Both the position numbers and the translations under genes were made by a program. From Desarmillaria ectypa (lineage: Eukaryota; Basidiomycota; Agaricomycetes; Agaricales; Physalacriaceae), in NCBI GenBank assembly GCA_030407005.1, contig JAUDYN010000001.1, positions 3,968,001-4,032,000 on the forward strand: a DNA stretch of 64,000 nucleotides, in the 5' to 3' direction. Shown piece by piece: positions 43,969 through 64,000 of the stretch. The notes under the pieces are model-generated. The model was given only the letters and a program-made list of their open reading frames with translations, ran no database searches and was not told the DNA's origin. Each line of letters starts with the position of its first letter. Within the stretch, counting starts at the first letter, position 1.

Positions 43969-45985
43969 ATGTCCGACTATAGCTTCTCTGACAATGAATA
44001 CTACGATGATGAAGATATGTTTGATGGAACTCAAGACGATGGTGAGCATGGCGCTTAGTAGTGCCTGTACGCCCCATATGCTCATTTACGGTCAGTGGAT
44101 GACGACGATGACATGGACATGGACGCCTATAATGAGGACTTCAAGGTCGACACTAGCAGCAAACGGAAATCGTACGAGATTGAGTACGAGTCGCTCAGCC
44201 AATCCGCTGTCGAGAAGCTTATGCAGCAAGAAGTTGAGTATATCACTGGTATTCTGGGCGTCGACGTGAGTTTGTCATAAGTATTCTCGAATTGCTGTAG
44301 CTGATGCAGAAATAGTCTGGCGTCGCAGCTCGGCTATTGCGCCACCTGTCGTGGAACAAGGAACGACTAATCGAGAAGTACATGGACAACCCCAACGCTA
44401 TTCTCGTCGCTGCAGGCGTCACCGTACCGGAGCCTCCATCAGCGGCTTCACCTATACGGTCCCATGCCGGAGACCGTCGTACCACGAGATCGTCATCGAA
44501 GATGTTTTCAACCCTGTCACCATCGTCCAAAACGTCTTCCAAGCCTTCATCATCATCATCTTATCAGCTAACACAGACCAGACCTAAAGAGGAGCCCTTT
44601 CTCTGTCCTATATGCTACGATGATTCATCAGATCTTCAAACCGCGTCGCTCGATTGTGGCCATCTTTTTTGCACAGGTTGTTGGACGGCATATGTCTCCT
44701 CCAAAATTCGCGACGAGGCTGAACATTGCGTTCGATGCATGGCCGAAGGGTGCGCCCTTGTGGCCCCAGACAATTTTATTCAATCTGTTCTCGCGGGCGA
44801 GGAGGAACCGACATGGGTTCGCTTCCAGGAGCTGCTCGCCCGCCACTTTGTCTCGTGTAACCCAAATTTGAAATACTGTCCTCATCCCGGATGTACTAAT
44901 ACAGTGTCATGTCCTGCCGCGGCATCCAAATCTAGTTTGACAACCGTTGTACCAACCGTATCGTGTGGAGCGCGGGGAATTCCGGGTGCTCCAGAAGCGT
45001 CAACTTCAGCTGTGGCGGCAAAGGAGCACTACTTTTGTTTTGGATGCCCGATCGACAGTGATCATCGTCCTGTGGTGTGCAGTGTCGCGAAGATGTGGCT
45101 GAAGAAGTGCGCGGATGATAGCGAAACAGCCAACTGGATCAAGAGTAACACGAAAGAATGCCCGAAGTGCCAGAGTACGATAGAGAAGAACGGAGGCTGC
45201 AAGTGCGTGTCTATAGTTCTCTTCGAAATCTTTTGCATTGATGATTCATCAGCCATATGACTTGTAAAAAGTGCAAACACGAGTTCTGCTGGGTTTGCAT
45301 GGGTCCATGGTCGGAACACGGCACCTCGTGGTACTCCTGCAACCGATACGAGGAGAAGAGTGGGAGTGATGCTCGAGATGCACAGAGTAAAAGCCGCGCG
45401 TCGCTGGAGCGATATCTACACGTGCGTTTTCGCGTTCTTTGACGTCGTTATTTTTAACCTTTTTGTTTAGTACTACAATCGTTGGGCTAACCACGAGCAA
45501 TCCGCCAAGCTCTCTCTGGATTTGTACGCTAAAACTGAGAAAAAGATGGAGGACATGCAGATTACGTCTTCATTGACCTGGATCGAGGTCCAGTTCATGA
45601 AGAAAGCAGTGGAAGAGGCCGACAAATGTCGTATGACGCTTAAATGGACCTATGCCATGGCGTATTATCTCGCGAGAGGGAACGAGAAGGAATTATTCGA
45701 AGATAATCAGCGAGATCTGGAGCAGGCTGTAGAAGACCTCGCCGAGCTACTTGAGCAGCCGATAGAAGCTGAAACAATCCCGACGTTAAGGCAGAAGGTG
45801 ACTGATAAGACGGTGTGTACTCACTATTCGGGATTGAGCGCATTGTTAATATTGCTTAGGTCTACGTGCAGAAGCGAAACGAGATCGTTTTGGAGGACAC
45901 AGCCCACGGATTTCTGGAAGGTCGCTGGAAATGGAATGCGCGAGTGGAAGGGTTTGACGAGCCAGACCAGGCTGATTTGGTTTAA
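43969..45985 (+). CDS. Ariadne-type RBR E3 ubiquitin-protein ligase
   Basis: RBR ligases take ubiquitin from an E2 onto a catalytic cysteine in RING2 and pass it to substrates. Six exons, 43969-44041, 44096-44265, 44316-45202, 45253-45421, 45471-45812 and 45860-45985, give 1767 nt and 588 residues. The N-terminus is very acidic ([18 protein letters not shown]), as in Ariadne proteins, followed by a UBA-like helical part. A Ser-rich linker leads to RING1 from C178 (CPICYDD.., [11 protein letters not shown]). Next come an IBR domain and RING2 ([20 protein letters not shown]) with the catalytic Cys at C376, whose codon lies just before an intron. The C-terminal Ariadne domain ([18 protein letters not shown].., [16 protein letters not shown]) is complete. 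The extra poly-Ser and Ala-rich inserts in the linker and IBR are lineage-specific. Nothing in the sequence suggests damage. Confidence 0.94.
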
Positions 45986-48900
45986 CCTGGACTGATTTTT
46001 TCTCTACTATTCTATTTAGATCCCTGATGCTCGTTGCTCGTCAGATCTTCCTGTGCGCTATCCTACCATTTTCCCTTTCTATCCATCGTTTGTACATATC
46101 CAGCGGGTACCTATTCTCGTCACGCAGAGTGTATATCAATAGCAAATGTACAAACAATATATAATGACCAATGAAACGCCCTCATAAAGGAAAGATCTTG
46201 AATGCGGCCCGGACGCCACAAGGTCCAAGTTGCCTCAATTATAAATGATCGGAGGTTCGGGAGGCCGGGTGTGTAGGACATGCAGGAACATTGAACAGGC
46301 GGTGATTCCGGAAGATATAACTGCAGCAGCTTCTTGGGAGTAGCGACCAAAGCAGCTATTCCTCCAATTCAATCGAATTTCCACGCCAATTACGCTATTG
46401 AGCCAAAGAGAAGCACCGAAAATTGTAGAAAACCTATCTTTTGGTCCACCTTTACTACTTGCATCAGAACATGCGCCTCTTAGTGCAAGTCGTATGCAAT
46501 CAATGACGACGAGAAGGCCTACCTCGGCGCTCCTCCCTCGGCCGAGACCCAACATTAATTATTAGAATGCTAAACGTGGCCAGGCGATTCAGGTCTAGGT
46601 AGAAGAGCTGAGTTGGACATCGAGATCGGAGAAAATGAATCTGCAATATCGCAATTTCCCCAAAAAGTCGGCATTTAGGACGCAGAATGTACTCGATATC
46701 CTCGGGAAAGGATTCGTAGAACCACGGAGAAATAAAGGTCGATACAAAAGGCATCACGCCACGGAAGGCGGTCCTCCAGGCGTACACATCTCACAAAGTT
46801 CCACCGTCAAACCTCCTCGAACACACCGCGGACTAGATACACGAGTCGAAGACGAGACACGCTTCGCTTCGCTTCCAACTGATTAACAAAGCGGCGCCAC
46901 AGGGTGAAAAGAACTTCCAGTTTGCGGAGGTGGGATGCGCTTTTCTCCAACAGCACTAGTGCGTTGTTGAACTGCCCCATGGAGTCGACAATGTTTTGTT
47001 TGACACACGATCTTCTGACACGGGACAGGCCAAACCCCATTGCAGCATTCAATTATGACTGAAACGCCACGTGAACCTTCTGTTAACGTTATGATCTCCG
47101 AGACTCGAGAGGGGATATAAGTCATTCTCATCCCCTCATTCGTCAGAACATTTACTGTACTTTATCTCCCAGGAAGGATGAAATGTGCCGTCGGGAGAGA
47201 CGGATTCCAATGGGTACATGATATGCGATGAAGGAGAACAAGAACCCCTCGGCAAACTGCGCTATAGGCTTTCGTTGATTTAAACAATCACGAAGTCCTA
47301 TTTTCAACAGGAACTCTTGAGGCGAAGTGACGCAATGAAGATCCGGGCTTCCTACGCAACGTTCCTATGTCTTGTCGGGGCTTTTCAACTATCCAAGATG
47401 GACCTGGGAGACATACAACTCAGCATACAGTACAGGTACGGTGGACAAAGTGCTGGCGCTGTCTTTGGTCCCAGCACAGAGAATTACTAAATAATGTATA
47501 ACCGGATGCCAAGATATCATGACATCCCCGTGGAGCGACTTTGTCCTGATTCTGGCGACAAAAGCGGGACAAAGGGAGAGAAAATGTTCTATTGAGATCG
47601 CGATCTGTTATGCCGATAGCACGATAACAGTGTTGATGGCTTATTCGAAGCCTTGCTCGTGACTGGACGGGGAACCACTGGAAAAGAACAGATTCAGTCA
47701 TGAGAAAGCTTATTGAACTAAACAGAGATACCACACCGATGTAAATCTGCATAGAGAAGCGCAAAAAAAAGAGGGTATATTCCCTCCTCGTTCCATCAAC
47801 ATCAGGCCGCCCATGCTTTTTGACCCTACTGTGGGTGATCACGATGTGCACATTTTGGTTTGCAGCACGTTCTAGATTATCGTCCTTCGGTTTTTTTTTG
47901 ATAGCTCATTGAAAGTGTATAACTCATAGTACGCTGTAATTCTCATTCCCACTCACTGTCGTCTTATCCACCAAATCAATACTACATATTGCCCTCTAGT
48001 TCTACTTTTAGCACTAACACTGCTCCAAATCATGCTTATATCAATACTTACATGTATCATAGATAATTCTATTTAGCATCTATTTCTCCTCCCATATGTA
48101 CCCGTTTTCTACATTGACCTGATGATGCTCATTGCTGGTTGGTCGCGCCTCGTCAGTGAGCCAATGGCGGACTTCCAATTTGACCGTGACATTCACTGTG
48201 ACGGGATCTTGCATATAGCGATTTCTTTTTTTACCTTTCCACCTCGGCCACCGCCCGATAACTGTTCTACTCAATATATTCTCCCTGAATATTTATCACA
48301 ACACTGTATAATATTTAGAAATATATTCATAAAAACTTTAAGGATACGGACCGCAGCTGAGAGCTACAGAAAATCATTCATCAAAATTTTGTACATGGCA
48401 ATTACCAATAGTAATTCGTAGTTTAATCAGCCACAGTAGTATGTCCGGATCATAAATCCAGTGATTGGCGGATCGAAACCAAGGAATCACATATTACGCA
48501 ACCAAACCAATCGTGAAGCTCGAAAACAAACCCACACAAAAGATCACCGAGAGCATAACGGTCTTCGACGCATTGCTGATTCATTCCAATGCTCCATCAC
48601 ACCATTGTATCCTTACAGGAATGCGGCAATGCCCGTAGCAAAGACGAAGGTGAGGCAGAATGCGGACTCTGAGAGGGGAAGTTGGAGCCCAAATGAAAAT
48701 GTATTGATCCAAAAAAAAAAAAAGAAAGACACCCGCGAGGTTCGAGATGACGAGGCATCTGTGCATACGTGAGTGCATGGATGATAATGGTAAAGATTCC
48801 ACTGTTTCAGATTCTATTCGCACTAGAATTTGCGGGACTAGGGGCGGGGAGACGTGCTTTGAGGCCGACGAAGTGAGGACGTTTGGTCTGGACAGTTCTT

Positions 48901-50270: not shown

Positions 50271-51251
50271 CTACAAACCCGTAATCGAAGCATACGATTT
50301 TTGAGGTCGTCGCGAGTACGCATCCTGACGTATCTCCCTCAACAACTCCAACTCATCAAGCAGCAGGCTATCTTCGAGCGCCTCCTTTCGGACAATCAAA
50401 GTAAGCGTATCCCGGGAGATAGCATACATCTTCTGCAACCGAAGGGGAGGATCATTCCTCATTAGATTCAATTTAACGCTCTCTTGCGTCTTCGTGACAA
50501 ATTCCCTGCGCGCTTCGTCAAGAAGCCTGACGGGATCGCTCCCCACACCAGCCCTCCGTCGTTTCCTCTTAACGATATTGTTAACGTGCACATCAGATTT
50601 GGAGCGAACAATGTAGGTGGGAATTTTATATCGCTCAGCGTTCTTCAAGATGGCTACGTCTGTGGCGGTGAAGCGGTCATTGAACAGGACGATGATGGCG
50701 TCGAAAATATAAAGTCCTTGGTCATTAAAATAGGTCCAGTCGGAGCAAGCGAGGGTTCCCGATGCCGGGACGTCGAACCAAATGAAAGGTTTGGTGGCGT
50801 TAGGGTCAGGGTATGAAGTGACGATGGAGGTGCTCTCCACATAGTCAGTTGAAGCAGCACCATCCTCGCCGTCCCATATGCCCCGGAGCGCATTAATAAG
50901 AGAAGATTTTCCCGTTCCTGATATTCCGGCGATGGCGACATGGAACTTTCCCTCTTTGTAATAGCGTCCCTTGGTCGACTCGAAATGTTCCCTAGAAGGC
51001 AGTTCGATAGGACGGAGACCCTTTCTCCATTTTGCCTCTACCTCCTTCTGAGCCTGGAGTGCCTTTTCTATCTCCGCATCCTTCCTTCTACCCTCCTCCC
51101 GCAGCTGGTTAGCGCGTTGTGCCGCCTGCTGTGCTTCTAGCTGCGCCCTCCTGGCATTGTTGGCTTCCTCCTGCGTCTCTCTCTGTAGCTGTTCGGTGCG
51201 ACGATAAGAATCGTCTATCTGTCTTCGGAGCTGCTCTTCCATTGAGACCAA
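50271..51251 (-). CDS. IRG-type GTPase, array copy 1 (altered switch II, short ends)
   Basis: A 326-codon frame encodes a shortened coiled coil (about 1-75), the linker KWRKGLRPIELP and a GTPase domain. The domain shows G1 GISGTGKSS (109-117), a switch II motif reading DVPA (160-163) where its paralogs have DVPG, and the G4-like RSKSD. The DxxG glycine normally contacts the gamma-phosphate, so hydrolysis may be impaired in this copy. Homology to paralogs (KENSTLVSMEEQ against QENPTMSAISEQ) continues upstream of the chosen ATG to about 51286. There a splice acceptor suggests a further 5' exon that I could not find. The C-terminus stops at SYASITGL and lacks the final LMKKAG helix of copies 2, 4 and 5. 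It is the left-most member of the array and may be decaying. Confidence 0.82.
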   Translation of the reverse strand: MVSMEEQLRRQIDDSYRRTEQLQRETQEEANNARRAQLEAQQAAQRANQLREEGRRKDAEIEKALQAQKEVEAKWRKGLRPIELPSREHFESTKGRYYKEGKFHVAIAGISGTGKSSLINALRGIWDGEDGAASTDYVESTSIVTSYPDPNATKPFIWFDVPASGTLACSDWTYFNDQGLYIFDAIIVLFNDRFTATDVAILKNAERYKIPTYIVRSKSDVHVNNIVKRKRRRAGVGSDPVRLLDEARREFVTKTQESVKLNLMRNDPPLRLQKMYAISRDTLTLIVRKEALEDSLLLDELELLREIRQDAYSRRPQKSYASITGL

Positions 51252-52779
51252 CGTCGAGTTTTCTTTGAGTGTGGTTTCGGATCCTGCTGCACGGAATAAC
51301 TATAGTCAGAAATCAGAGGTCGACATCACCACACAGAGGACATACCTAAAGGTCAAATACAAGATTGCGCTGGCAAGGGTCTTGGAACTTCAATTTTGAA
51401 ATCTAAGAGTAAACACGTTCAGAAAAGGAAGAACAGGTGGCTTATCGGTACTGACAGAAACGAAGACGTTTTAGAGGTGAAGATCAAAGAAAGAAGAATA
51501 AAGCAGATGAGAAAATGAACACAGAAATCGTTGCAGACAGGAGTCTAGCAAGATGCAGCACTCTGTAGCGTTTCCCGTACACTTTATAGATGGATTCGTA
51601 GGCTCAGACTCCTGCCTCTTCACGTCCCTCACTATCCTATATAAGTATAAGCACTCTTTGTTTCACAGTAAATCAGAAAACGCGTCAAACCTTGCGAACG
51701 AATGATTGGTATAGTGCTGTTCTCACATAACCGCCTGGCAGCTCTCACGGCATTTCGTGACTCCGCACGATGAGCTGCAACGACCGAGGTTCTGGAACCG
51801 CGCGCCTTGTGATGATACAAACTAAAGACAAATGAAGTGCCGTCCACGGACAAAGTGAGGAATACCATGAGGTTGATAGACGCTGCTAGTGATAGCCTAA
51901 GTGACAGGAAGGACAGCCAAGGAATATATTATAATGATCAGACTCCATTTTGATGTGCTAAGGAAAAAAAGGGTGGAGCGCTGTGAAAAGCCTCGCTTGG
52001 TGATTAAAGTGGTAGCCGTGAAGGCATGTCATTAGAAGATCATTGAGACGCTGGAAGGGAGGTCCTGCCTGTGCGGTGCCACAGCCTTGACTCGAGCTCC
52101 CTGAGAATTAAAACCTCGGATATATCACATACTGACAATCACTAATATAATTTCCATCCTTACCTTGCGTGCTTTGTTCCGAGACCGCGAGGCCTGACGG
52201 GGAAATGGCCGTCGAACCAAAAGGGAGCGCGTTTGTGGCGTGAGAATGTTGGTATTTTAGACTTCCGTCCTGCCCCTCGTGACTTCCAAGCCAGCCCGAC
52301 AGTGGACACTATCCACAACATGTCACGCTGGATGACGATTGGATGATGTGTCGCAGCACAGTGCCTCTAGACCTCCATCTGCATGAAGTTCCCGAACGAT
52401 GAATATTACGTCTAATTCACAAGGAATTCCATCCACTCAGAACCGTTTCAAACGTCGGGTTGCTGAATATATATTGTATATCGCGCGTCACTTACCGCAT
52501 TTTTACATTTTGATGTTCAGCCGGCAGCGTTCCCTCAAGAGCGTAGAAGGGCACATATTTCGAACCAAATCCAACTCGTCTTTTTCGTTTAATGAGAGGG
52601 AGGCGCTTCAAATACAAGTAACAAGGAAAGAGGAGTTCAATTCCAATTCGAATGCACCACAGGGTAAGAGCCAAGCTAAATCCGAAACTAAAATAGAAAA
52701 AAAGTCCGCAACAAAAACCGATGAACGAATCAGATCAACAAGTGTTGGAAAGAAGACGGACAAGAATCTTGCCACATTA
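51252..52779. other. Intergenic in GTPase array (copies 1-2)
   Basis: This holds the 5' region of copy 1 (a donor-like GTATGT at 51345 and an acceptor at 51287 suggest an intron) and the 3' flank of copy 2. The plus-strand frame 52399-52797 overlaps the end of copy 2 and looks spurious. Confidence 0.45.
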
Positions 52780-54051
52780 CTACGCGAACAGCCCTAAGAT
52801 TCCAGAACCTGCTTTCTTCATGAGCTCTGCCATCGAGCCGTACGACTTCTCTGATCGTCGCGAGAACGCATCCTGAAGGATGTCCTTCCATAACTCGTAC
52901 TCATCGAGTAGGAGGTTGTCCTCGAGTGGCTCCTCCCGAATCGTCAGGGTAAGCGCATCTCGAGAGACGACATACATCTTCTGCGATCGAAGTGGTGGAT
53001 CGTTCTTCATGAGATTAGCGCGAACACTGTCCCGCGTCTTCGTCATGTACTCCTTCCGAGCATCATCAAGAACCTTGGCGGGATCGCGCCTCGCACCGGG
53101 CACCCGCCGTGTCTTCTTAACGATGTTTTCGATGTGTATGTCGGATTTGGAGCGAACGATATAGGTAGGGATATTGTATCGCTCGGCATTTTTCAATATG
53201 GCTGCGTCTGTGGCGGTGAAGCGGTCGTTGAATAAAACGATGATGGCGTCGAAGATAAAAAGTCCTTGGTTGTTGAAGTATGTCCAATCAGAACACGAGA
53301 GTGTTCCTGACCCCGGGACGTCAAACCAAATGAAAGGGTTAGAGGGATTCGGATCAGGGTATGCAGTCACGATGGAAGTGCTTTCGACAACATCGGTCGG
53401 AGCGGCTTTCTCCTCGCCATCCCAAATACCTCGAAAGGCGTTGATGAGAGTCGACTTGCCGGTTCCAGAGATTCCAGCGATGGCGAGGTGGAATTTCCCC
53501 TCCTTGTAGTATTGCTGCTTGACCTTCTCATACTGCTCCTGAGAAGGCCACTCGACAGGACGAATCCCCTTCTTCCATCTTGCCTCCATTTCTTCCTTCG
53601 CCGCATGTATGTTCTTCATCTCCTCATCTTTCTGTTTTGCCTCGCCTTGTAGCTCGCCAACGATTTTGGCGGCCTTTTCGGCATCCAGCTTCGCCCTGCT
53701 GGCTACGTCAGCTTGCTCTTGCTTCTCCCTCTGAAGCTGTTCAACGCAGTCACGAGCTTGGTTTGCCTCGTTCTGGAACCGCTGGATCTTCAGCTTCGTG
53801 CTGCTGACTATGTCTGCGTGCTCCCTCTGAAGCTGTTCGGCATGGCTACGAGCTTGGTTTGCCTCGTCCTGGAACTTCTGAATGCGGCGGTCGGATTCTT
53901 CTCTCTCTTTTCGAAATCGCTCTTCGATAAGGGCCAAGGTCGGGTTCTCCTGAACCTTGCTACCCCGAATTGATTTAAGGATGGCTGGAATGGTTGCGAC
54001 AACTGTGGAAGCGAAGTCCCATATGACAACTAAAATATTACAATCAGACAT
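52780..54051 (-). CDS. IRG-type GTPase, array copy 2
   Basis: A single 423-codon frame. A hydrophobic N-terminal stretch (VVATIPAILKSIRGSKVQENPT, about 17-38) is followed by a coiled coil to about residue 158. That coiled coil includes a near-duplicate unit (FQDEANQARSHAEQLQRE and FQNEANQARDCVEQLQRE). The linker KKGIRPVEWPSQEQY leads into the GTPase domain with GISGTGKST (193-201), DVPGSG and RSKSD. The tail SYGSMAELMKKAGSGILGLF is complete. Unlike copies 3-5 it does not begin MGxxxS. An ATGGGA lies at 54022-54017, but one base out of frame, so a small indel may have moved the start to 54051, or a 5' intron exists. IRG GTPases of animals act on membranes of vacuoles around microbes; the role in fungi is unknown. 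Confidence 0.88.
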   Translation of the reverse strand: MSDCNILVVIWDFASTVVATIPAILKSIRGSKVQENPTLALIEERFRKEREESDRRIQKFQDEANQARSHAEQLQREHADIVSSTKLKIQRFQNEANQARDCVEQLQREKQEQADVASRAKLDAEKAAKIVGELQGEAKQKDEEMKNIHAAKEEMEARWKKGIRPVEWPSQEQYEKVKQQYYKEGKFHLAIAGISGTGKSTLINAFRGIWDGEEKAAPTDVVESTSIVTAYPDPNPSNPFIWFDVPGSGTLSCSDWTYFNNQGLFIFDAIIVLFNDRFTATDAAILKNAERYNIPTYIVRSKSDIHIENIVKKTRRVPGARRDPAKVLDDARKEYMTKTRDSVRANLMKNDPPLRSQKMYVVSRDALTLTIREEPLEDNLLLDEYELWKDILQDAFSRRSEKSYGSMAELMKKAGSGILGLFA

Positions 54052-55174
54052 AGGACGTTCATTTCTGTGTTGGGTACGTTACAGTAAGACATGCAGAATT
54101 TACTCAAATGCTATAATTGCGGGATTTAAAGCGACTGAGTTTATGCATTACGAGTGTGTCTTTCAGACTTACAGAAGAGTCTTGATGGTAAGAGTTCACA
54201 AAAGTGCCGATTCAAGGTACCACAGCGATGGTTGAATGTCAAAGCAGACTGAGGCACAGATGAGGGACGGAGGGAAATGAGCCCTCTGTGAAGATACTTG
54301 TAGTGCATGCGAAGTACCGCATCCGAAGTTTCCATCCTGAGGGATTTCATTTGGTTCTAGCTCACACTGTGAAGTTGTTACAAGAATAAGTAGGCGCCGG
54401 TTGATTATCTGATTTCACGAGCGATTCAAGAATACACTTACCAGAATTCATGATCTGAGATGCGGTGACGCATCTTTAGTATCACATAACTCCCTTTCAG
54501 ATCGCAGTATAGTATAGTCCTCATTTCTATGAGTCGTAACTGTGCACGACTTGGCGAACTTGAAACATCATAGAACAGCGCGTTATACTAGCGGTGATCT
54601 TGGCAATTCCAGGGACTAATCCAAGAGACTTGTTAACGCATTTAAGTAGGGTAGGCAGCGTGAAAACAACTTGGCTAACCAGTTGCCTTGATGCTTGAGG
54701 TCCTTTAATCCACATAAGGTCCTACGAGTTCTAGTCACTTCGAGTCACGGTCGTCCGAGAGCGCTCTGCGCATTGCGAATGTTCCCTTTAATGCTTCATG
54801 CTAGCCTTCCGAGTCAAGACGATACGGGGTACCTTTCTATTGATTTAATGTGACGGGTTCAACGAAGCTGGTAAACGCCGACATTATGGAGGCAAGGTCA
54901 CAACCAGTTTACTCTCGGAATGCGCTTTGATGATCACTGAGCGGTAACGTCTTACACTCACTTGAACCTAGTGAGTACTATGAAGGTGTGTTGTTGGAAA
55001 TCGCCGTAGATGTTCAAGGGGAAAGAGGTTTGCTGATCGTTACAGAGCAGAGCGTTCACGGGGCAGTTTGGTAGTCAAAGATTCGGAATGATAGGCAGCA
55101 ACGTATTTAGACAGCGATTGGGATATATATAGTAGATACTTCGTAGCAAATTCAAATACGACTGGGTCTTCTTT
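54052..55174. other. Intergenic in GTPase array (copies 2-3)
   Basis: This contains the upstream region of copy 2, including a GAAGATACTTGTAG element (54290-54303) also found upstream of copy 4, and the 3' flank of copy 3. No gene was seen. Confidence 0.5.
54290..54303 (-). promoter_or_regulatory. Shared upstream element of array copy 2
   Basis: CTACAAGTATCTTC on the minus strand lies about 240 bp before the copy 2 ATG. Near-identical or related elements lie upstream of copy 4 (59497-59509), copy 5 (62831-62845) and the N-terminal relic (60395-60410). It may be a core promoter element kept from the ancestral gene or simply shared ancestry of the flanks. Confidence 0.4.
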
Positions 55175-56353
55175 TCAAGATCGTGGGTGAAGCAGAATCG
55201 ATTTCTCCGAGCGTCGCCAGTACGCGTCCTGGAGTACGTCTCTCAGCAGCTCGTGCTCATTGAGAACAGTACAACTCCCAAGGCTCTCTGAGTCCCGTCG
55301 TACAACGTAAGTAAGCGTATCCCGACTGACAGCATACACTTTCTGTAACGGCAAAGGAGGGTCGTTCTTCGCCAGATGGACATTAACAGTCTTCTGCGAG
55401 GTCACGATGTATTCCTTACGAGCCTCCAAGGAGATCTTCACAAGATCAGCCTTCGGCCCAGCGCTCCGCTGTTTTTTACTGATGAGGTTGGCGATGTGTA
55501 CGTCGGATTTAGAGCGAACGAGGTATGCAGGGATCATATAGCGCGCGCAATTCTGAAGGATCGCTACGTCGGCGGCCGTGAAGCAATCGTTGAATAGGAT
55601 GATGATGGCATCAAAGATGTAGAGGCCTTGATCGTTAAAGTAAGTCCAATCGGGACAGGAGATAGTTCCCGAGCCCGGGACATCGAACCAAATGAAAGGA
55701 TTGGTAGGGTCAGGATCGGGATGGGGAGTAACAACTAAGGTAGTTTCAACGACATCAGTCGGAGCAGCGCCCTCATCGTCGTCCCAGATGCCTCGGACCG
55801 CGTTCACCAAGGATGATTTGCCGCTTCCTGAAGCTCCAGTAATGGCGATATGAAACTTCCCCTCCTTGTAAAATCGTCGCTTGTTTGCCTCGTACTGCTC
55901 TCGAGACGGCCACTCGACCGGATGGATCCCTTTCTTCCACTTTGCCTCTATCTCTTTCTGAGCTTCCAATATCTTCTTCATCTCTACATCCTTCCTGTCT
56001 ATCTGCTCTTTCAGCTCATCGGCAATTTGGGTCGCCCTCAGAGCTGCCTCACGCTCTTTGTTAGTATTATCCGCTTGCTGCTGCTTCTTCTTCTTCAGGT
56101 CTTCGACCGTTTGGGCTGCCCTCTGTGCTGTCTCCTGCGCCTTTGCGGCTTTATCGGCTAGATCCCGCTGCTCTTTTTCCAACTGGTCGGTGCGGCGTAA
56201 GGATTCCTCCTTCTCTGCTTCCGCTCTCCGGAGCTGTTCGTCGATAGTAACCATCGTTGGATTATCTTCAATTCTACGGCTTCTGATGACCCCGAGGGCG
56301 GAGAAAGTGGCAGCAGCAGCACTGGCAACAGCAGAGGATGCGGTGTTTCCCAT
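55175..56353 (-). CDS. IRG-type GTPase, array copy 3 (predicted N-myristoylated)
   Basis: A 392-codon frame. The start MGNTASSAV fits the N-myristoylation pattern MGxxxS, which would tether the protein to membranes. A short Ala-rich head with RRIEDNPTMVTIDEQ is followed by a coiled coil (about 38-138) and the linker KKGIHPVEWPSREQY. The GTPase domain has GASGSGKSS (173-181), DVPGSG and VRSKSDVHIANL. It is the most divergent copy of the array: DCFTAADVAIL and YMIPAYLVRSKSD differ from the other four. The C-terminus reads RRSEKSILLHPRS and then stops, so the final amphipathic helix is lost. The first ATG after an upstream non-coding region was used as start and agrees with copies 4 and 5. Confidence 0.88.
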   Translation of the reverse strand: MGNTASSAVASAAAATFSALGVIRSRRIEDNPTMVTIDEQLRRAEAEKEESLRRTDQLEKEQRDLADKAAKAQETAQRAAQTVEDLKKKKQQQADNTNKEREAALRATQIADELKEQIDRKDVEMKKILEAQKEIEAKWKKGIHPVEWPSREQYEANKRRFYKEGKFHIAITGASGSGKSSLVNAVRGIWDDDEGAAPTDVVETTLVVTPHPDPDPTNPFIWFDVPGSGTISCPDWTYFNDQGLYIFDAIIILFNDCFTAADVAILQNCARYMIPAYLVRSKSDVHIANLISKKQRSAGPKADLVKISLEARKEYIVTSQKTVNVHLAKNDPPLPLQKVYAVSRDTLTYVVRRDSESLGSCTVLNEHELLRDVLQDAYWRRSEKSILLHPRS

Positions 56354-57937
56354 GCTTTGATGAGTGGGGGCGATAACTGAGGAATATGACGATCAGAAAT
56401 GGAGGGTTGAGCCGAAAATGCGCTACGTACCAAATAGCGAAATGCAAGCAATCACCAACGAATGTAGTTTGAGAATCCGAGAGCGGGTGAGTATATGTAT
56501 ATGGAAACTTACGGCAGTACCTTTATGTTTCATTTCGAGCATGTAGCGGCTAGAAATATCGGCGCTAGCCTAATAGTTTCAAAATACCACCAAGTTCTGG
56601 ATCATATGGCTTGAGACGCGAGGAGGTCCCAGAGATCACGCTAGAATATGTTGAGTATTGATGTGCCGGAGCCAAAAGGTTACATGCGACATTATGCTTC
56701 AGAAAGGAATGAAACGGCCATGAGTATGATAGACGCCTGCTTGGAACTATATCGGATGCACTTTCGGAATAACAGTGAAAGGCTTCGCACATACCGTCGT
56801 AGAAAGGTGAGATTGGTGAAGGTGTGCTTCAGAAATCGATTCAAATGTTCGCAAGATGTGCTACGCCTGGAATGAAAGTAGATCACAAACAGAATGATAA
56901 CAAAGACGATCCTTACATTCATTATGCACTTCAGCAAAATGCACAAACCCGAATACAACGTGTACGTCGGTATGCGTTTTGATTGTATCTGATGCAACCG
57001 TGCAAGTTGACTTAAGAATGATATCTGCAGAGGTTTGATTAGCAAAGATCGGAAATCGATGTTATTTTCCAACTTTTCATATTCTATCCTTCCTTCCAGG
57101 GACGATGGAAACACCGCTAGAAGTGCGCATTGACAGGCCTCAAATGTCTTCATTGTTCTGGCGGGATACCATGTCGGATGATATACTGCAGCAATAGCGA
57201 TGTAATTGCGCATAACATTGATCGTCTTCAGGATATCACTACATGTGCGGCAAACGAAAATGATGTTGTTTCATCTCATCGGCAGGCTGGAGAGTAAACA
57301 TAGCAACATTGTAAATGCGAGGCATGCGCAGCTAATGAGTGTGGAAAATGCGTGATGGCGTGAAGAGCGAGGACTTTCGTTGGGTAGACCACTACCGCTG
57401 AACAGCTGGCGATCCCTTTAGGACAGGTCGACAAATGCATGTTTTTTTGCCATGACCTATGTAAACATCAAATCAAAAAAGAGCGAATCAAGTCACGCAG
57501 AACCACCAGACCTAAGCCCAAATCGAATTCCCTGCTCAATTGCAAAGAACTGCAGCAACAGATATTCTCTTCACGGTCGAAGGCGAGCGTCCAGTCGTAC
57601 CCTCGAAATATCCCCGAAATGAAAATCGTGGCGGTCAGGAGAGTGAAGCCTAATTGTTCCCACGCCACTACTCCTCATTCCCCGTCGTTCGAAACTTAGT
57701 TCTTTCTGCTCTCTCTTCGATCTCTCCCTCATAAGGCATTGAACGCTGAGCCCATATTCAGGTCTGTAATTGAGGAGAACGCAATGAACCCTTACCAAAA
57801 ATTTAAATAACAAGGTGAAGTGAATTTGGACTACCACGTACAGAACCAGACTAAAGTTGAACTAAATTAAAAACAAAGTCAAGACAAACACTGTCCTGTA
57901 AGGCATATGGAAAGGAGAAGAAATTCATGAGGAGAAC
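56354..57937. other. Intergenic in GTPase array (copies 3-4)
   Basis: No gene recognised. A 173-codon minus-strand frame (57213-56692) has no motif and lacks coding character. The stretch holds the 5' region of copy 3 and the 3' flank of copy 4. Confidence 0.45.
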
Positions 57938-59179
57938 CTAATTTGCAAAGAATCGAACAAAGTCCATGCCAGTCTTCCTCATGAGATTCGGCATCGTGCT
58001 ATACGACTTCTCAGATTGTCGCGAATATCCATCCTGAAGGATATCCCTCAGCAAATCTAACTCGTTCAGCACAATGGTATCTTCGAGCGGCTCGTCTCGA
58101 ACAACCATTGTCAACGTATCCCGGGAGACAGCGTACATTTTCTGCGACCGTATAGGAGGATCGTTCTTCATCAAATTTGACCGGACACTCTCCTGCGTCC
58201 TTGCAAGGTATTCCTTGCAAGCCTTATCAAGAATCTTGGAGGGATTAGTTCTACCCCCGGCTCCTCGCCTTTTCTTCTTGACGATATTCTCAACATGGAT
58301 GTCAGATTTGGAGCGGACGATATAGGTCGGGATGTCGTATCGCTCGCAATTCTTGAGAATGGCGATGTCGGTGGCGGTGAAACGGTCGTTGAACAGGACA
58401 ATGACGGCGTCGAAAATGTATAGACCTTGGTCGTTGAAGTAGGTCCAGTCGGAGCATGCGAGCGTTCCTGAACCCGGAACATCGAACCAGATGAAAGGTT
58501 TGGCAGGATTCGGGTCTGGATAGGGGGTGACAACGGAGGTACTTTCGACAATATCGGTCAGAGCGGCGCCCTCCTCATCGTCCCATATGCCTCGAAAGGC
58601 GTTGATGAGAGATGACTTTCCCGTTCCCGAAATTCCAGTGATAGCCAGATGAAACTTGCCCTCCATATAAAAACGACGTTTGGTTGCCTCGTATTTCTCC
58701 TTGGTAGGCCATTCGACCGGATGAATACCAGTCTTCCATTTGGACTCCATCACCTTCTGCGCCTCCAAAGTCTCCTTCATTTCTGCCTCCTTCTTCTGCA
58801 CCTGCTCTTGCAACTCTTTAACAGCCTGGGCCGCCTTCTGAGCTACCTCGCGTTCTCTTCTGACAATCTCCATCTGCTCTTGCTTCTCCTTCTCCAATCG
58901 TTGTGTGTTCTCAGCCGCCCTTTGTGCCTCTCCTTGCTGGACTCTGATTCTCTCGGCCTGTGCCTGCCTTTCTCGTTCTAGCTGCTTGGCAAGATGGGCC
59001 GCTCTCTGGGCTGCCTCCTGCTCCCTTCTGAGTCTTTCGGCCAGTTCCCGCCTCTCTCGTTCCATTTGCTCACTGCGTCGTTGGGATTCGGCTCTCTCTG
59101 CCTCCTCCCTTCTGTGCTGTTCTTCGATAGCCCGCATCGCCCGATTGCGCCGTCTGAGAGCGGATCCGCCACCACCCAT
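57938..59179 (-). CDS. IRG-type GTPase, array copy 4 (predicted N-myristoylated)
   Basis: A 413-codon frame. The start MGGGGSALRR again fits MGxxxS, followed by basic residues that could strengthen membrane binding. It lacks the hydrophobic head and the QENPT stretch of copies 2, 3 and 5. The coiled coil (about 16-148) is the most charged of the array, with repeated units such as RREQEAAQRAAHLAKQLERE and REREVAQKAAQAVKELQEQ. The GTPase domain has GISGTGKSS (182-190), DVPGSG and RSKSDIHVENI, and the tail is complete (SYSTMPNLMRKTGMDFVRFF). Intact motifs suggest an active enzyme. The shared upstream element lies at 59497-59509, about 320 bp before the start, and a donor-like GTAAGTC at about 59365 suggests an intron in the 5' untranslated region. 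Confidence 0.9.
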   Translation of the reverse strand: MGGGGSALRRRNRAMRAIEEQHRREEAERAESQRRSEQMERERRELAERLRREQEAAQRAAHLAKQLERERQAQAERIRVQQGEAQRAAENTQRLEKEKQEQMEIVRREREVAQKAAQAVKELQEQVQKKEAEMKETLEAQKVMESKWKTGIHPVEWPTKEKYEATKRRFYMEGKFHLAITGISGTGKSSLINAFRGIWDDEEGAALTDIVESTSVVTPYPDPNPAKPFIWFDVPGSGTLACSDWTYFNDQGLYIFDAVIVLFNDRFTATDIAILKNCERYDIPTYIVRSKSDIHVENIVKKKRRGAGGRTNPSKILDKACKEYLARTQESVRSNLMKNDPPIRSQKMYAVSRDTLTMVVRDEPLEDTIVLNELDLLRDILQDGYSRQSEKSYSTMPNLMRKTGMDFVRFFAN

Positions 59180-59834
59180 AATTTGATAATAGCTGAAGGA
59201 GACATCAGTGAGATATACGTGAGCATCTTCGACATGGCTCGCGTACCTTTCTACGAACTAACAAAGGTCCTTCGGGGATGAAGCGTTGATCGTCGAACTT
59301 CAACAACTTCTGACGAATATTGCGAATTAGTATATGAGATGTCGCATTGTTTTATAAGACTTACATTAGTGCCTCGATGGTGGCAATGGAGGAAAGTGGT
59401 GGTTATTAGAGATACGAACCTAGCTGCTAGGAGCAGCGACGAGGTCGAAGACAGAGAAAGCGACCAAGTGAGTTTCTGATGAAAAGAGGTTCCGAAAAGA
59501 TACTTGTAGGTTTCATACGAAGCCCCTCGTGACCGCAACTTCAACTGCCCAAAGTCCCTCGCACTATCTCGTCACACGCAGACGCGACTTGATCTCTCTT
59601 CTTCACATAAGAAGATCAAAAAAAATAACACCCTGGCGCTAATGCGTGGAATCTGGCAACCGTCCTATAGCCTACCGCCATGGAACTTGCAGTCGTGCCG
59701 GCTGTCGCAGGATAGTCATCGATAAGAAGTCGTTTCTCAACCCATGGCATGACAGCACACCTTCACATCACACATGAGATGAATACAGGATGAACGGAGG
59801 TGATCCTCCTGATCATAGGGACATGTTCGTGGCA
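59180..59834. other. Upstream region of GTPase copy 4
   Basis: This contains the shared element (AAGATACTTGTAG, 59497-59509) and a probable intron in the 5' untranslated region. No gene was seen. Confidence 0.5.
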
Positions 59835-59979
59835 TTAGTGATGATAGACGCCGGTATGGAAAGACTCTAAGACAGGCTGCAAGTATGGTCGGCCATGAGG
59901 TACGCACAGAGAAGGTGAATTGCCATGGAAGACTTTGTGGCCTACATGTAGCAACTTGAAGGTATTGGTGTCTGCGCTG

Positions 59980-60098
59980 TTATCTTCGGTAGCTCTCATA
60001 GTCGGGTTTTCTTCGACTCTGCTGGCACTGATTGCGCTAATGATAGCAGGGATCGTAGCTGCGGCCACGTTAGCGATGATAGACACAGCGGTACCCAT
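59980..60098 (-). pseudogene. N-terminal relic of a sixth IRG-type GTPase copy
   Basis: From ATG 60098 the minus strand reads MGTAVSIIANVAAATIPAII and then SAISASRVEENPTMRATEDN. This closely matches the heads of copies 2, 3 and 5 (IPAILKSIRGSKVQENPT, IPSILGAIRGSRVQENPT), including MGxxxS. After RATEDN homology stops at once: there is no coiled coil and no GTPase domain before the frame closes at 59835. A related upstream element is at 60395-60410. This is the stump of a deleted paralog, or possibly a short expressed head peptide. Confidence 0.75.
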
Positions 60099-60170
60099 TC
60101 TTTGACAATAGTTGTGACATTTACTGAAAAAACGGGAGAACATCTTTAAGTGATGCTGCATGCCCTTCAA

Positions 60171-61384
60171 TGAAGGTTGTACAAACGAAGCGTCAAAATG
60201 TCAAACTTGACAGTCTATGAACGAGTGATCATGAGTATGAGCATTATTTCAGCTTGTCCTGAGTGCTTACAACGAACGTTTGAAAGCGATAATTCAAACA
60301 ATAACCAGCAAAACGAACGTAATAGCAGTACCACCGAAGAACAAGTCGATAGTGAATCAAGCAGGGAACCGACAAAAGAAACACCATCCCGTGTGAAGTT
60401 ACTTGTATAGTTGTGTGCCAAGAGCCTCGTTATGATGGTATCCTGAACAACTTCATCAAGATACCCGTGACAGGATAGGCGCTATTTCTTCGCTTGAACA
60501 GCCAAAAATACACTGAGTCACAAACCTCAAGTTGCCTCGCAGATCACGGAATAGTCTTCTAGTCGTTATCGATTGGAAGCTGCGCCTAACCAAAGGATAC
60601 ATTTGTATTGTAAGGGGTGAGGGCGGCGATCTTCTTAATTCCAGTGACAAGCCAGTGAGGCTTTAGACGCTGACAGGAGTGAAAAGCAAGGTGAAGGGAC
60701 GGCGCTTTGTTGTATTACAGAGTGGAGAAAGAGTGAGGCGCCATAGAAACCTGATTGCCAGAGGGGTAGTGTGAAGGCGTGCTGTAAGAAGGGCCTAAGC
60801 GCTTTGCGAATGCCATATAGACCTGAGAATAAATACGTTAATTACCAAGGGCGGTCATTGAATTTACCTTGAGCGGTTAGATGCGATGTGGAACATGAAA
60901 GACAAACCAGAAGGAAGTAGGAAGAGCCTGCGCGGTGAGAGCGTTGCATCCATCCCCCGTATCTGGCGATTCCCGCATGATTGAGAAGTATTTCTGTCTT
61001 GTCCTCCAGGTTGATGTCAACATGTAACGACAACCGAAAAGTTTGAATCTATCGATATGACACGATCACTTCGACTGTAGACACAAACAAGGGTGGGCAC
61101 ATTGGCAGAGACGGGGTCTGTCTCCCAGAAATGCTTAGCAACTTACCCGGATACATCATCCAGGTTTTATGGTACTTGAGAAGAGTAATAGTGAATTTCA
61201 CTGAAGAAAAGCTCGAGGACGATTCAATAGGATGAGATCAACTCGAGCTAACCATGAAAACACATGAGAAATGAAACCGGTAATGACCAGGCTAAAAGCG
61301 TTTTAGATACCAAAAAACAATGCTGTAAGAAAAAATGTCTATAGATGGCCATAGCAGGGGGGGAATAGAAGGAATCTGACCTCG
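60171..61384. other. Intergenic in GTPase array (relic to copy 5)
   Basis: This holds the upstream region of the N-terminal relic and the 3' flank of copy 5. The plus-strand frame 60177-60410 (Ser/Asn/Glu-rich) overlaps the presumed relic promoter and is considered chance. Nothing else was seen. Confidence 0.45.
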
Positions 61385-62632
61385 TCAGTTGGTAAAGAAA
61401 CGGAAGATATCCATGCCAGCCTTTTTCATGAGATCCGCCATCGAACCGTATGATTTCTCAGATCGCCGTGAATACGCGTCCTGAAGGATGTCCTTCAACA
61501 GCTCTAGCTCGTTGAGAACGAGGCTATCCTCGAGCGACTCTTCTCGTACAACCATCGTCAACGTATCCCGGGAGACAGCGTACATCTTCTGCGACCGGAT
61601 AGGAGGATCGTTCTTCATCAAATTCAGTCTCACGCTCTCCTGCGTCTTCGTGATGTACTCCCTTCGGGCCTCGTCAAGAATCTTCGTAGGGTCTCTCCTC
61701 GCGCCAGCTCCCCGCTTTTTCCTCTTGACAACATTCTCGATGTGGATGTCAGATTTAGAGCGAACGATATAGGTTGGGATTTTGTATCGCTCGCAATTCT
61801 TCAAGATAGCGATATCGGTGGCAGTGAACCGATCGTTGAATAGGACGATGATGGCGTCGAAAATGTACAGTCCTTGGTCGTTGAAGTAGGTCCAATCAGA
61901 ACATGAGAGTGTGCCTGAACCCGGTACATCGAACCAAATGAAAGGGTTGGCGGGATTAGGATCGGGGTAAGGAGTAACGATGGCGGTACTTTCAACGATA
62001 TCGGTCGCAGCGGCGCCTGGTTCATCGTCCCATATGCCTCGAAAGGCGTTGATGAGAGACGACTTTCCTGTCCCTGAAATTCCGGCGATAGCAAGATGAA
62101 ACTTGCCCTCCTTGTAAAAACGTTGCTTGGTCGCCTCGAACTGCTCGCGAGAAGGCCATTCAACTGGATGAATACCCTTCTTCCACTTGCCCTCCATCTC
62201 CTTCTGGTTCTCTAAGATCTTCTTCATCTCTGCCTCCTTCAACTTTGCCTGCTCTTGCAACTCGTTAGCAGCATGAGTGGCATTCTCTGCTGCCTCGCGT
62301 TCTCTGTTAGCAATGTCGGCTTGCTCTTGCTTCTCCTTCTCCAGTTGCTCTACCTTCTGAGCTGCCATTTGAGCATCCTCCTCCATGATTCTGATCCTCT
62401 CTGCTTCATCCTGCTTCTCTCTCAGCAGCTGTTCAGCAGCTTGAGTCGCTTTCTGAGCTGCCTGCTGCAAGGTATGAATCTTCTCCGCTTGCTGCTGCTT
62501 CTCTCGTTCGAACTGCTCAGAGATGGCGGACATCGTCGGGTTTTCTTGGACTCTACTGCCTCGTATTGCCCCAAGGATGGAGGGAATGGCCATTGCAGCG
62601 GCAGAAGCGAGCAGGGATACGGCTCCACCCAT
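61385..62632 (-). CDS. IRG-type GTPase, array copy 5 (predicted N-myristoylated)
   Basis: A 415-codon frame and the best preserved copy. MGGAVSLLAS (MGxxxS) opens an Ala-rich head ending in IRGSRVQENPT (23-33). A coiled coil of irregular heptads spans about 35-150 (REKQEQADIANREREAAE is in the middle). The linker KKGIHPVEWPSREQF is nearly invariant in the family. The GTPase domain shows G1 GISGTGKSS (184-192), the T of switch I probably in AAATDIVEST (207-216), G3 DVPGSG (235-240), a conserved SDWTYFNDQGLYIFDAIIVL block and G4-like RSKSD (291-295). The C-terminal helix LMKKAGMDIFRFFTN (401-415) is amphipathic. Animal IRG proteins have the same order of G motifs. All key residues are intact here, so this copy serves as reference for the array. 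Confidence 0.92.
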   Translation of the reverse strand: MGGAVSLLASAAAMAIPSILGAIRGSRVQENPTMSAISEQFEREKQQQAEKIHTLQQAAQKATQAAEQLLREKQDEAERIRIMEEDAQMAAQKVEQLEKEKQEQADIANREREAAENATHAANELQEQAKLKEAEMKKILENQKEMEGKWKKGIHPVEWPSREQFEATKQRFYKEGKFHLAIAGISGTGKSSLINAFRGIWDDEPGAAATDIVESTAIVTPYPDPNPANPFIWFDVPGSGTLSCSDWTYFNDQGLYIFDAIIVLFNDRFTATDIAILKNCERYKIPTYIVRSKSDIHIENVVKRKKRGAGARRDPTKILDEARREYITKTQESVRLNLMKNDPPIRSQKMYAVSRDTLTMVVREESLEDSLVLNELELLKDILQDAYSRRSEKSYGSMADLMKKAGMDIFRFFTN

Positions 62633-64000
62633 TGCTAATGGATCTGAGGACTGAAAGCATGAAGGTTAGAAACGAGGTCTCGGCTTCAGTGGTGTCGAAT
62701 ACCTTGTATATAGATGGAAAAGGTCACTCTGACGAAGACCTAAGCGCAAATGTGATGATCCCAGAGATGAGAGAAACTGAAGTCAAAAAGATGCAGAAAG
62801 AGGGTCTTGGAATGGAAGCCAGTCTTCTGCGGAGATATTTGTACGTCGCTAACAAGCACTACTGGCGCGTCTAGTTGCATGTATTGAGTAGCCTTCACTT
62901 GTTAGCCGCTCGTGAAGATGTGCAGCCTTACCCTTCAGCTTTCACAGAAGTTCTGGGGAAGCGCCCAAAATCAGGACCTGAACCACAATTCGAAGGTTTC
63001 TCGCAGTGATCGGGGTTGGTTCTAGTTTCTCATCATGAGACTTTGAAAGAGTGTCGAGGTTAAGATTATGCGTGTCAATTGTTGCATTGACTCCGGTGTT
63101 CCATTGCTACGATAGTCAATGAGCCACGAGGTAGTGAAAAACTATCGAGAAACTCACACCTCATGGCTGGAGCTAAGGTGATGGGCGGTGAAAGAGTGCA
63201 TTGGAGAGAAAGAGTGGTGATGTTTGAATGGGACTAACCACCTCAGATCAGTTTCACAAGACAGCGCCACCCCAAACGGAGTCACTCAATGACGGTGGTT
63301 TCCTGTGCCTTCGCACAAAATTTAAACGGTATTGTCCTTCACACTATCACAGCAACATCATGGAGATGGGAGCGATAAGTGGCTTGCTGCACGGTGGTAC
63401 GAAGGGAGACGGTACTTTGGTAGTGAGAAAGCGCGTTTAGGCAAAAGAAGCGGTTGTTTGTCGATGAGTAACAGTGCTAGATTTCACATTGGGGGACTTG
63501 CTGGTATCTGCCGCACAGCTAAGTCGCCAATCTCGGAGAGCCCACGTCAGTGGTGGTTGGAGCGCCCTCGTCGCTCCGAGTTGAGTGTATGTGTTTGGAC
63601 ATGTTACGACTTGACAAGAACGTCTTTGACTTCGTTCGCGGTCAGCGTTGTAACAGTTAAATGCTTGCTTCGAATAATTGTTGGACGTCGAGCTTTGAAA
63701 CTTTCGTGAAGGGGGCGGGTCCAGGACCAGGCCACAACGTGGTGACGCATGACTTACGTTAGTGACGGCTCATGACGCGTTCAAATTATCACGTGCATGT
63801 TTTCCTCCTTTGCGTACAGGCCTCCCCGACGAGTATAAAAGGGCGTTGCCTTCGATTACCCATCGCTCCTTTCCTTCCTTCCATGCATTATCCCGTACAG
63901 CGAAGTCATCGTCTTACAAAACGACGTCACAGGAAGTTGTAGGCACCTCTTGGTCTACATCGCATCCCCAAGGATATTTTTATACATACCTGCCATCATC
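62633..64000. other. Upstream region of GTPase copy 5 and right flank
   Basis: A related upstream element is at 62831-62845 (GGAGATATTTGTACG). Plus-strand frames at 63228-63440 and 63332-63709 have no recognised motif. The last 200 bases look like a promoter. Confidence 0.45.
63780..63960 (+). promoter_or_regulatory. Probable promoter of a gene beyond the right edge
   Basis: A TATA box (GAGTATAAAAGGGCG, TATAAAA at 63834-63840) is followed about 25-40 bases later by the pyrimidine-rich CGCTCCTTTCCTTCCTTCC, a typical fungal transcription start setting. A CACGTG site lies upstream at 63791-63796. The ATG in the pyrimidine tract region (63883) or a later one would start the gene; its coding region is not visible here. 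Confidence 0.5.

Follow-up and report, generated by a model that had tools for sequence, protein, structure and literature searches.

Most known IRG GTPases come from vertebrates; in mouse cells, they serve to attack the compartments in which intracellular parasites live. As set out in a 2005 survey (PMC1297648), their origin was obscure, only distant G-domain look-alikes being noted in C. elegans and Cyanobacteria, and the mouse members have a single long coding exon, with an MGxxxS start in 11 of them. The DNA analysed here, a stretch of 64,000 nucleotides (the window; positions 3968001-4032000 of the 4568377-base contig C1), comes from the bog mushroom Desarmillaria ectypa (a basidiomycete of the Physalacriaceae; assembly of 40.6 Mb in 32 contigs) and carries an array of IRG-type GTPase frames. 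An earlier note on this DNA had described five such frames and a head-only stump between copies 4 and 5; all were found as described, on the minus strand, and the array is confirmed as real. Copies c1-c5 lie inside the window and c6-c10 outside it on the same contig. They are best read, with a probability of roughly 0.62, as members of a four-part fungal IRG-type family of membrane-anchored, GTP-triggered assemblers, a figure that does not extend to a role in defence.

The IRG-type assignment is one on which Pfam, PDB sequence comparison and the predicted fold agree; profile search and structure prediction are checks that the earlier note had named, and the results uphold the likeness to vertebrate IRG GTPases that it proposed. 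All five window frames match Pfam IIGP, with 79.5-84.4 bits against a cut-off of 24, over positions 33-185 of the 375-position profile. Membership of the mitofusin or another dynamin-like class is less probable, the corresponding fold match ranking after 17 IRG entries: mitofusin-like folds are the next class after the IRGs, and mitofusin and BDLP share 11-14% identity with the fungal domain, at root-mean-square deviations of 3.6 to 9.0 Angstrom and with no sequence match. Regarding the vertebrate (p47) IRGs of the GKS class (Irga6, Irgb6, Irgb10, GM4951), the likeness extends over G-domain sequence, fold, the GX4GKS P-loop and the presence of equivalents of Irga6 E106, T108, R159 and D164; further shared features are the MGxxxS start, multi-copy clustered genes and a single-frame coding region.

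The arrangement around the G domain is readily apparent in the full-length reference copy c5 (61385..62632, minus strand; 415 residues; public P0008). Its head (62522..62632, residues 1-37) consists of MGGAVS, a hydrophobic helix and ENPTM, and is followed by a coiled coil (62180..62521, residues 38-151), the G domain (61457..62113, about residues 174-392; P-loop GISGTGKSS at 62057-62083) and a last helix (61400..61450, residues 395-411), amphipathic by moment and of low model confidence at its end. In contrast to vertebrate IRGs, a long coiled coil built in 28-residue modules precedes the G domain, standing where the animal helices would stand, so that the difference from the animal arrangement seen by the earlier note is borne out. 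The C-terminal helical domain of animal IRGs is absent: the Pfam match reaches no further than profile position 185 of 375, and the fold match to Irga6 stops at about 257 of 413, with the fungal protein ending about 23 residues further on. The cysteine and basic head variants described below also set the fungal copies apart from vertebrate IRGs, as does the lack of interferon in fungi. The engine is expected to function as in an IRG; lacking the helical domain, however, these are not to be called IRG proteins in the vertebrate sense.

A study of Irga6 (PMC3042988) lists twelve residues required for oligomerisation and hydrolysis, together with many dispensable surface residues. By sequence alignment, c5 keeps seven of the twelve (T102, E106, T108, R159, D164, N191 and K196); of 17 no-effect residues from that region, it keeps 2 (Fisher P 0.014, in a small test on chosen residues). 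The residues matching E106, R159 and D164 are E214, R268 and D273 of c5. Conservation was counted in non-gap cells over 241 G domains from 191 fungal proteins, the relatives from the first two protein searches, with 39 from a third search standing outside the counts; E106 is kept in 232 of 237, T108 in 236 of 237, R159 in 219 of 235, D164 in 234 of 235 and N191 in 210 of 233. Other positions weigh against a shared interface. In the 80-row alignment A3 (80 of the 191 proteins, picked mostly for an MG start and a single P-loop), E77, S132, K161 and K162 of Irga6 are kept in no row, S132 being T throughout, and 31% of rows retain K196; in the window copies, D stands in place of G103. Since the mouse GMS regulator class, according to the same source (PMC3042988), has E106, R159 and D164 replaced while the fungi keep them, the fungal proteins resemble the catalytic GKS class. 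The conserved residues suggest GTP-dependent oligomerisation and cooperative hydrolysis.

At the N-terminus, MGxxx[ST] opens 96 of 186 Met-starting relatives and only 5 of 1688 internal methionines of the same proteins, a control set from which internal MGxxx[ST] was excluded if NP stood 10-30 residues further on. The MGxxxS motif is present in eight of the ten cluster copies and in the stump, and none of the 11 rows of alignment A1 departs from M1, G2, S6 or the NP motif; head conservation in A3 is partly by choice, because its rows were picked largely for the MG start. From this motif, the heads of most copies should be N-myristoylated. A myristoyl group requires a second membrane signal, and the heads differ precisely in this part. 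By our own classification rule, hydrophobic-helix heads ending in ENPTM or a variant occur in c3, c5, c6, c7, c9, c10 and the stump; c8 has a cysteine head, MGSAMSCRAEENPTM, like the Armillaria-type P0023, P0025, P0027 and P0037; c4 has a basic head, MGGGGSALRRRNRAM, to be compared with P0032, P0036, P0039 and P0043; c2 and its orthologs have a hydrophobic head without MG; and c1 is headless, its orthologs P0058, P0061, P0072, P0073 and P0090 being likewise annotated headless. Palmitoylation is on record for the mouse IRG Irgm1 (PMC3994021). A strongly amphipathic head helix was considered and rejected, the hydrophobic moments being only moderate. The MGxxxS motif shared by fungi and mouse IRGs may be convergent, because the remaining N-terminus does not align.

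The c8 head is identical to cysteine heads at 13-14 of 18 positions and to P0032-type basic heads at 5 of 18. The c4 head matches cysteine and basic heads alike at 8-9 of 18 positions, so its basic class rests on composition. Mapped on the tree of protein bodies, the final labelling gives six changes of head type, compared with seven in an earlier labelling that contained some wrong labels. The cysteine and basic heads all fall within one body clade; head change is therefore local, not general.

The coiled coil is modular, as judged from the 43 of 60 rows in which it is measurable, related rows not being independent. The spacing between the NPT motif and the entry of the G domain peaks at 83, 111 and 139 residues, in 28-residue steps of four heptads, and equals 27 modulo 28 in 22 of the 43 rows. 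The strongest self-similarity of the coil is found in c4, c5 and c8 at shifts of both 28 and 56 residues and in c3 at 28, with DNA repeats at the matching spacings of 84 and 168 bases. Several observations run counter to a regular ladder of modules: the coils of c2 and c6 are not most self-similar at 28 or 56, the length of 122 in c5 and c7 lies off the 28-residue grid, and, for simple heptad steps, no remainder of 7 is favoured among 114 relatives with each length counted once.

The remaining frames of the array all lie on the minus strand. Copy c1 (50271..51251; public P0055) has a short coil and the IRG-type G domain; its listed frame opens with TTG, the first ATG being at 51242 (323 residues). 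Copy c2 (52780..54051, 423 residues) comprises its hydrophobic head (53935-54051), coil, G domain and tail, and c3 (55175..56353, 392 residues) an MGNTASS hydrophobic head (56252-56353), coil and G domain with GASGSGKSS. In c4 (57938..59179, 413 residues; public P0024), the short basic head (59135-59179) precedes the coil and a G domain with its P-loop at 58610-58636. The stump (59835..60170) codes at 59991-60098 for an MGTAVS...ENPTM head and for little more, with no Pfam match; its use as an alternative first exon of c4 was rejected, as nothing was seen in support and an intron of about 0.8 kb would be required. The coding region of each window copy is one uninterrupted frame. The head, coil and GTPase that the earlier note ascribed to every frame are present in most, with c1 lacking the head, and its motifs GxSGTGKSS and DVPGSG need amending for c3 (GASGSGKSS) and for the G3 motif of c1 (DVPASG), the frames being otherwise as described.

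Among the best-scoring candidates of a whole-genome search, ten G-domain copies were found, all at C1 4018250-4085948, so that the five-copy array stands for the window but not for the genome. Outside the window lie c6 (4050174-4051361, minus; public P0044), c7 (4053357-4054604, plus), c8 (4055906-4057141, plus), the broken c9 (4079684-4080820, plus; locus L013) and c10 (4084737-4085948, plus; public P0022); the D. ectypa origin of P0044 and P0022 bears out the placing of the array in a fungus. With six copies on the minus strand and four on the plus strand, the same-strand arrangement holds within the window but fails for the whole cluster. The G-domain stretch recurs in register in five copies, which share 73-82% DNA identity with a reference copy (family D1). 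No shared promoter words exceeded the range of random windows.

Copy turnover is evident from the duplications. An inverted duplication unites 57939..63290, which holds c4, the stump and c5, with a partner at C1 4052690-4057140 outside the window, in two pieces of 90.6% and 93.0% identity; the exception is a stretch of about 1.1 kb (59140-60252) that carries the stump and the beginning of c4 and has about 190 bases opposite it. A second inverted pair, c6/c9, shows 90.5% identity, and recent duplicate pairs in the cluster number three. Copy c9 is decaying: its frame is interrupted by a TAG, and its P-loop is altered; public model P0102 bypasses this stop and fuses c9 to unrelated sequence. The G domain is under purifying selection: by our own NG86-type counting, the ratio of nonsynonymous to synonymous change (dN/dS) is at most 0.15 in all 36 pairwise comparisons among the nine intact copies, those outside the window included, a result that chance frames would not yield. 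Head and coil are looser, and in the head dN and dS are both elevated. Positive selection was considered and rejected: where the ratio is defined, it stays at or below 1 in every G-domain, coil and C-terminal pair, many coil and some head values being undefined through saturation of dS; one 18-codon head pair (c4-c6) reaches 1.42.

Two pairs of copies are mosaics. The G domains of c4 and c8 are identical in amino acids, with 0 nonsynonymous and 0.04 synonymous changes per site; their coils differ by 0.33 synonymous changes per site, their heads are alike at 7 of 18 residues, and DNA identity drops to about 0.5 directly beyond the stop codon. In c5 versus c7, 22 of 111 head bases differ, compared with 16 of 1137 body bases (P 7e-15); the head excess is milder against the 300 bases upstream, where 23 of 291 differ (P 0.0013). 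Over its full length the c7 head is nearer to that of c5 (80/102) than to that of c10 (74/99), and part of it resembles c10 by eye. Both pairs are compatible with events between paralogs in which either the engine was converted or the head replaced.

The age of the copies was assessed by phylogeny, with 60 family rows and two outgroups drawn from the 191 proteins and support from the Shimodaira-Hasegawa-like approximate likelihood ratio test (SH-aLRT); P0027, P0030, P0034 and P0037 (no anchor), c9, double-G models and other relatives stand outside the tree. The clades of c1 (100), c2 (100), c6 (100) and c4/c8 (98) each include Guyanagaster and Armillaria members, and therefore at least four lineages predate Guyanagaster, Desarmillaria and Armillaria, with recent duplication and loss on top. 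The c3/c10 clade (97) has no Guyanagaster row, and c5/c7 with Guyanagaster P0014 are grouped only at 87, together with the c1 clade. The birth-and-death pattern assumed by the earlier note agrees with the stump, the broken c9 and the three recent pairs, but is tempered by these old lineages and by a strongly conserved G domain.

Relatives are numerous, at least 804 proteins at E 0.001 in one search; of the 430, 804 and 371 rows given by the protein searches, the results refer to the best 120 each, and the named organisms among the matches listed are Agaricomycetes. The family already carries a database label, "interferon-inducible GTPase-domain-containing protein" of Agaricomycetes, a set with the same heads, coil and G domain that includes the window copies. 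No study of these GTPases in fungi was found among the best-ranked literature matches; new here are the MGxxxS heads in which the second signal is hydrophobic, a cysteine or basic, the 28-residue coil steps, the absence of the C-terminal helical domain and the partly kept Irga6 interface. No fusion to a known immune domain is present among the matches listed, of which P0192 (1282 residues, PF20152) and P0213 (988 residues, no other Pfam match) exceed the 801 residues of the relative used as query in the third search, which admitted longer proteins, and are perhaps merged models. Metagenome relatives such as P0107, P0142, P0154, P0169, P0204 and others carry the names "chemotaxis protein histidine kinase CheA", "EngB" or "RsgA", which automatic annotation probably gave to fungal genes in error. 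A bacterial origin was rejected within the scope of one contig scan with two peptide patterns, which gave at least three loci; by eye, these three resemble EngB (L016, L018) or HydF (L017), not IRG, and bacterial IRG-like genes may yet exist.

Two G domains per model, as in the mouse tandem IRGs (Irgb2-b1, Irgb5-b4), are found in some fungal relatives (two or more in 49 of 191); in contrast, each window copy carries one. Many double-G models are from Boletales, with G domains about 255-270 residues apart and in some cases an MGxxxS head; the double-G models, including P0042, P0069, P0071 and P0124, are either real tandem proteins or merged models. The D. ectypa model P0009 (538 residues; window 52780-56353) joins c3, from within its coil, to c2 and is probably a gene-model merger, because the c3 head and both stops are dropped. 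Similar double models, P0001-P0007, exist in other Armillaria-group species.

In the surroundings, 20 other open frames between window position 13 kb and C1 4.077 Mb were compared with Pfam. Ten have a match at E 0.01 or better, nine of them over the curated cut-off and all of housekeeping types, including importin-like, class II tRNA synthetase, HAMP and HATPase frames and three glycosyltransferase frames, one also with an epimerase; no known immune domain is among the Pfam matches of these 20 frames. Among the matched frames are two, beside the cluster at window 44316-45992, of an ARIH1/Ariadne-like RBR E3 ubiquitin ligase. A 421-residue frame at window 28709-29971 matches VPS13_N only below threshold (14.3 bits against a cut-off of 80), and a 766-residue open frame outside the window (L009 3272-5569, C1 about 4035272-4037569) has no Pfam match.

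The computations establish the identity of the domain, the conservation of motifs and interface, the modular coil, the classes of head, purifying selection and the mosaic pairs; lipidation, GTP-driven assembly and membrane remodelling are inferred. Taking the four parts together, the head, through its N-myristoyl group and a hydrophobic helix, cysteine or basic cluster, would place each copy on a particular internal membrane. With GTP, the G domains would form face-to-face pairs in which each partner triggers hydrolysis by the other, and the coil would link molecules into a coat that may constrict, tether or break the membrane; the short amphipathic tail would replace the animal C-terminal helical domain. 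The copies would then share a common engine with different addresses, conversion-like exchange homogenising the engine while the heads stay distinct. That the target is an intruder's membrane, and the function cell-autonomous defence, is a weaker and tentative proposal, because it derives from IRG kinship and copy turnover; the role in defence or nonself recognition that the earlier note raised is likewise no more than a possibility.

The strongest rival is housekeeping membrane remodelling, in which organelle-specific, constitutively expressed copies would serve vesicle or organelle dynamics with no immune role. It is a serious possibility, though it falls short of being probable: purifying selection in all 36 G-domain pairs, at least four lineages retained across Guyanagaster, Desarmillaria and Armillaria, the housekeeping types of the Pfam-matched neighbours, the rank of mitofusin-like folds next after the IRGs and head classes naturally readable as organelle addresses all agree with it. 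Against these stand a turnover (stump, broken c9, three recent pairs) and differing copy sets that are less usual in core trafficking, and an engine whose nearest relatives are immune proteins, neither being a strong objection. Fungi employ multi-gene families for allorecognition and cell death, and heads and coil might instead form a membrane-damaging assembly upon fusion of incompatible hyphae. The multi-copy cluster, its decaying copies, the variable heads and coils and an N-terminus directed to membranes would suit such a role; it is nevertheless improbable, given that no HET, NACHT, patatin or similar domain occurs in the 20 neighbouring frames or fused in the matches listed, and that strong constraint and shared lineages are found where extreme polymorphism would be expected.

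The least probable alternative is that the heads are not real, the MG starts being artefacts of gene calling or selection and the proteins soluble. Many public models do start within the coil, c1 and its orthologs are headless, head dN and dS are both raised, and the 80-row alignment was picked largely for MG starts. The excess of MGxxx[ST] at protein starts over internal methionines and the invariant M1, G2, S6 and NP of alignment A1 argue for genuine heads, as do the mis-started models P0011, P0046, P0059 and P0124, in which the same kind of head nevertheless follows in frame. Membrane-anchored, GTP-triggered assembly is the preferred reading of the family.

This large mushroom family shares the engine of the IRGs, their myristoylation motif and much of their catalytic face, but on another chassis, and so constitutes an independent system, in which one can ask what the engine does alone and whether fungi have cell-autonomous membrane attack. 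In the c4/c8 pair, nature has joined one G-domain sequence to two different heads, and with this domain swap the proposition that the head is the address becomes directly testable in yeast. In its boldest form, which we regard as unlikely, mushroom-forming fungi may have their own IRG-like membrane-attack system, with a homogenised engine and interchangeable lipid-anchored heads, each copy guarding a different internal membrane, whether against bacteria and viruses inside the cell or against foreign nuclei and organelles.

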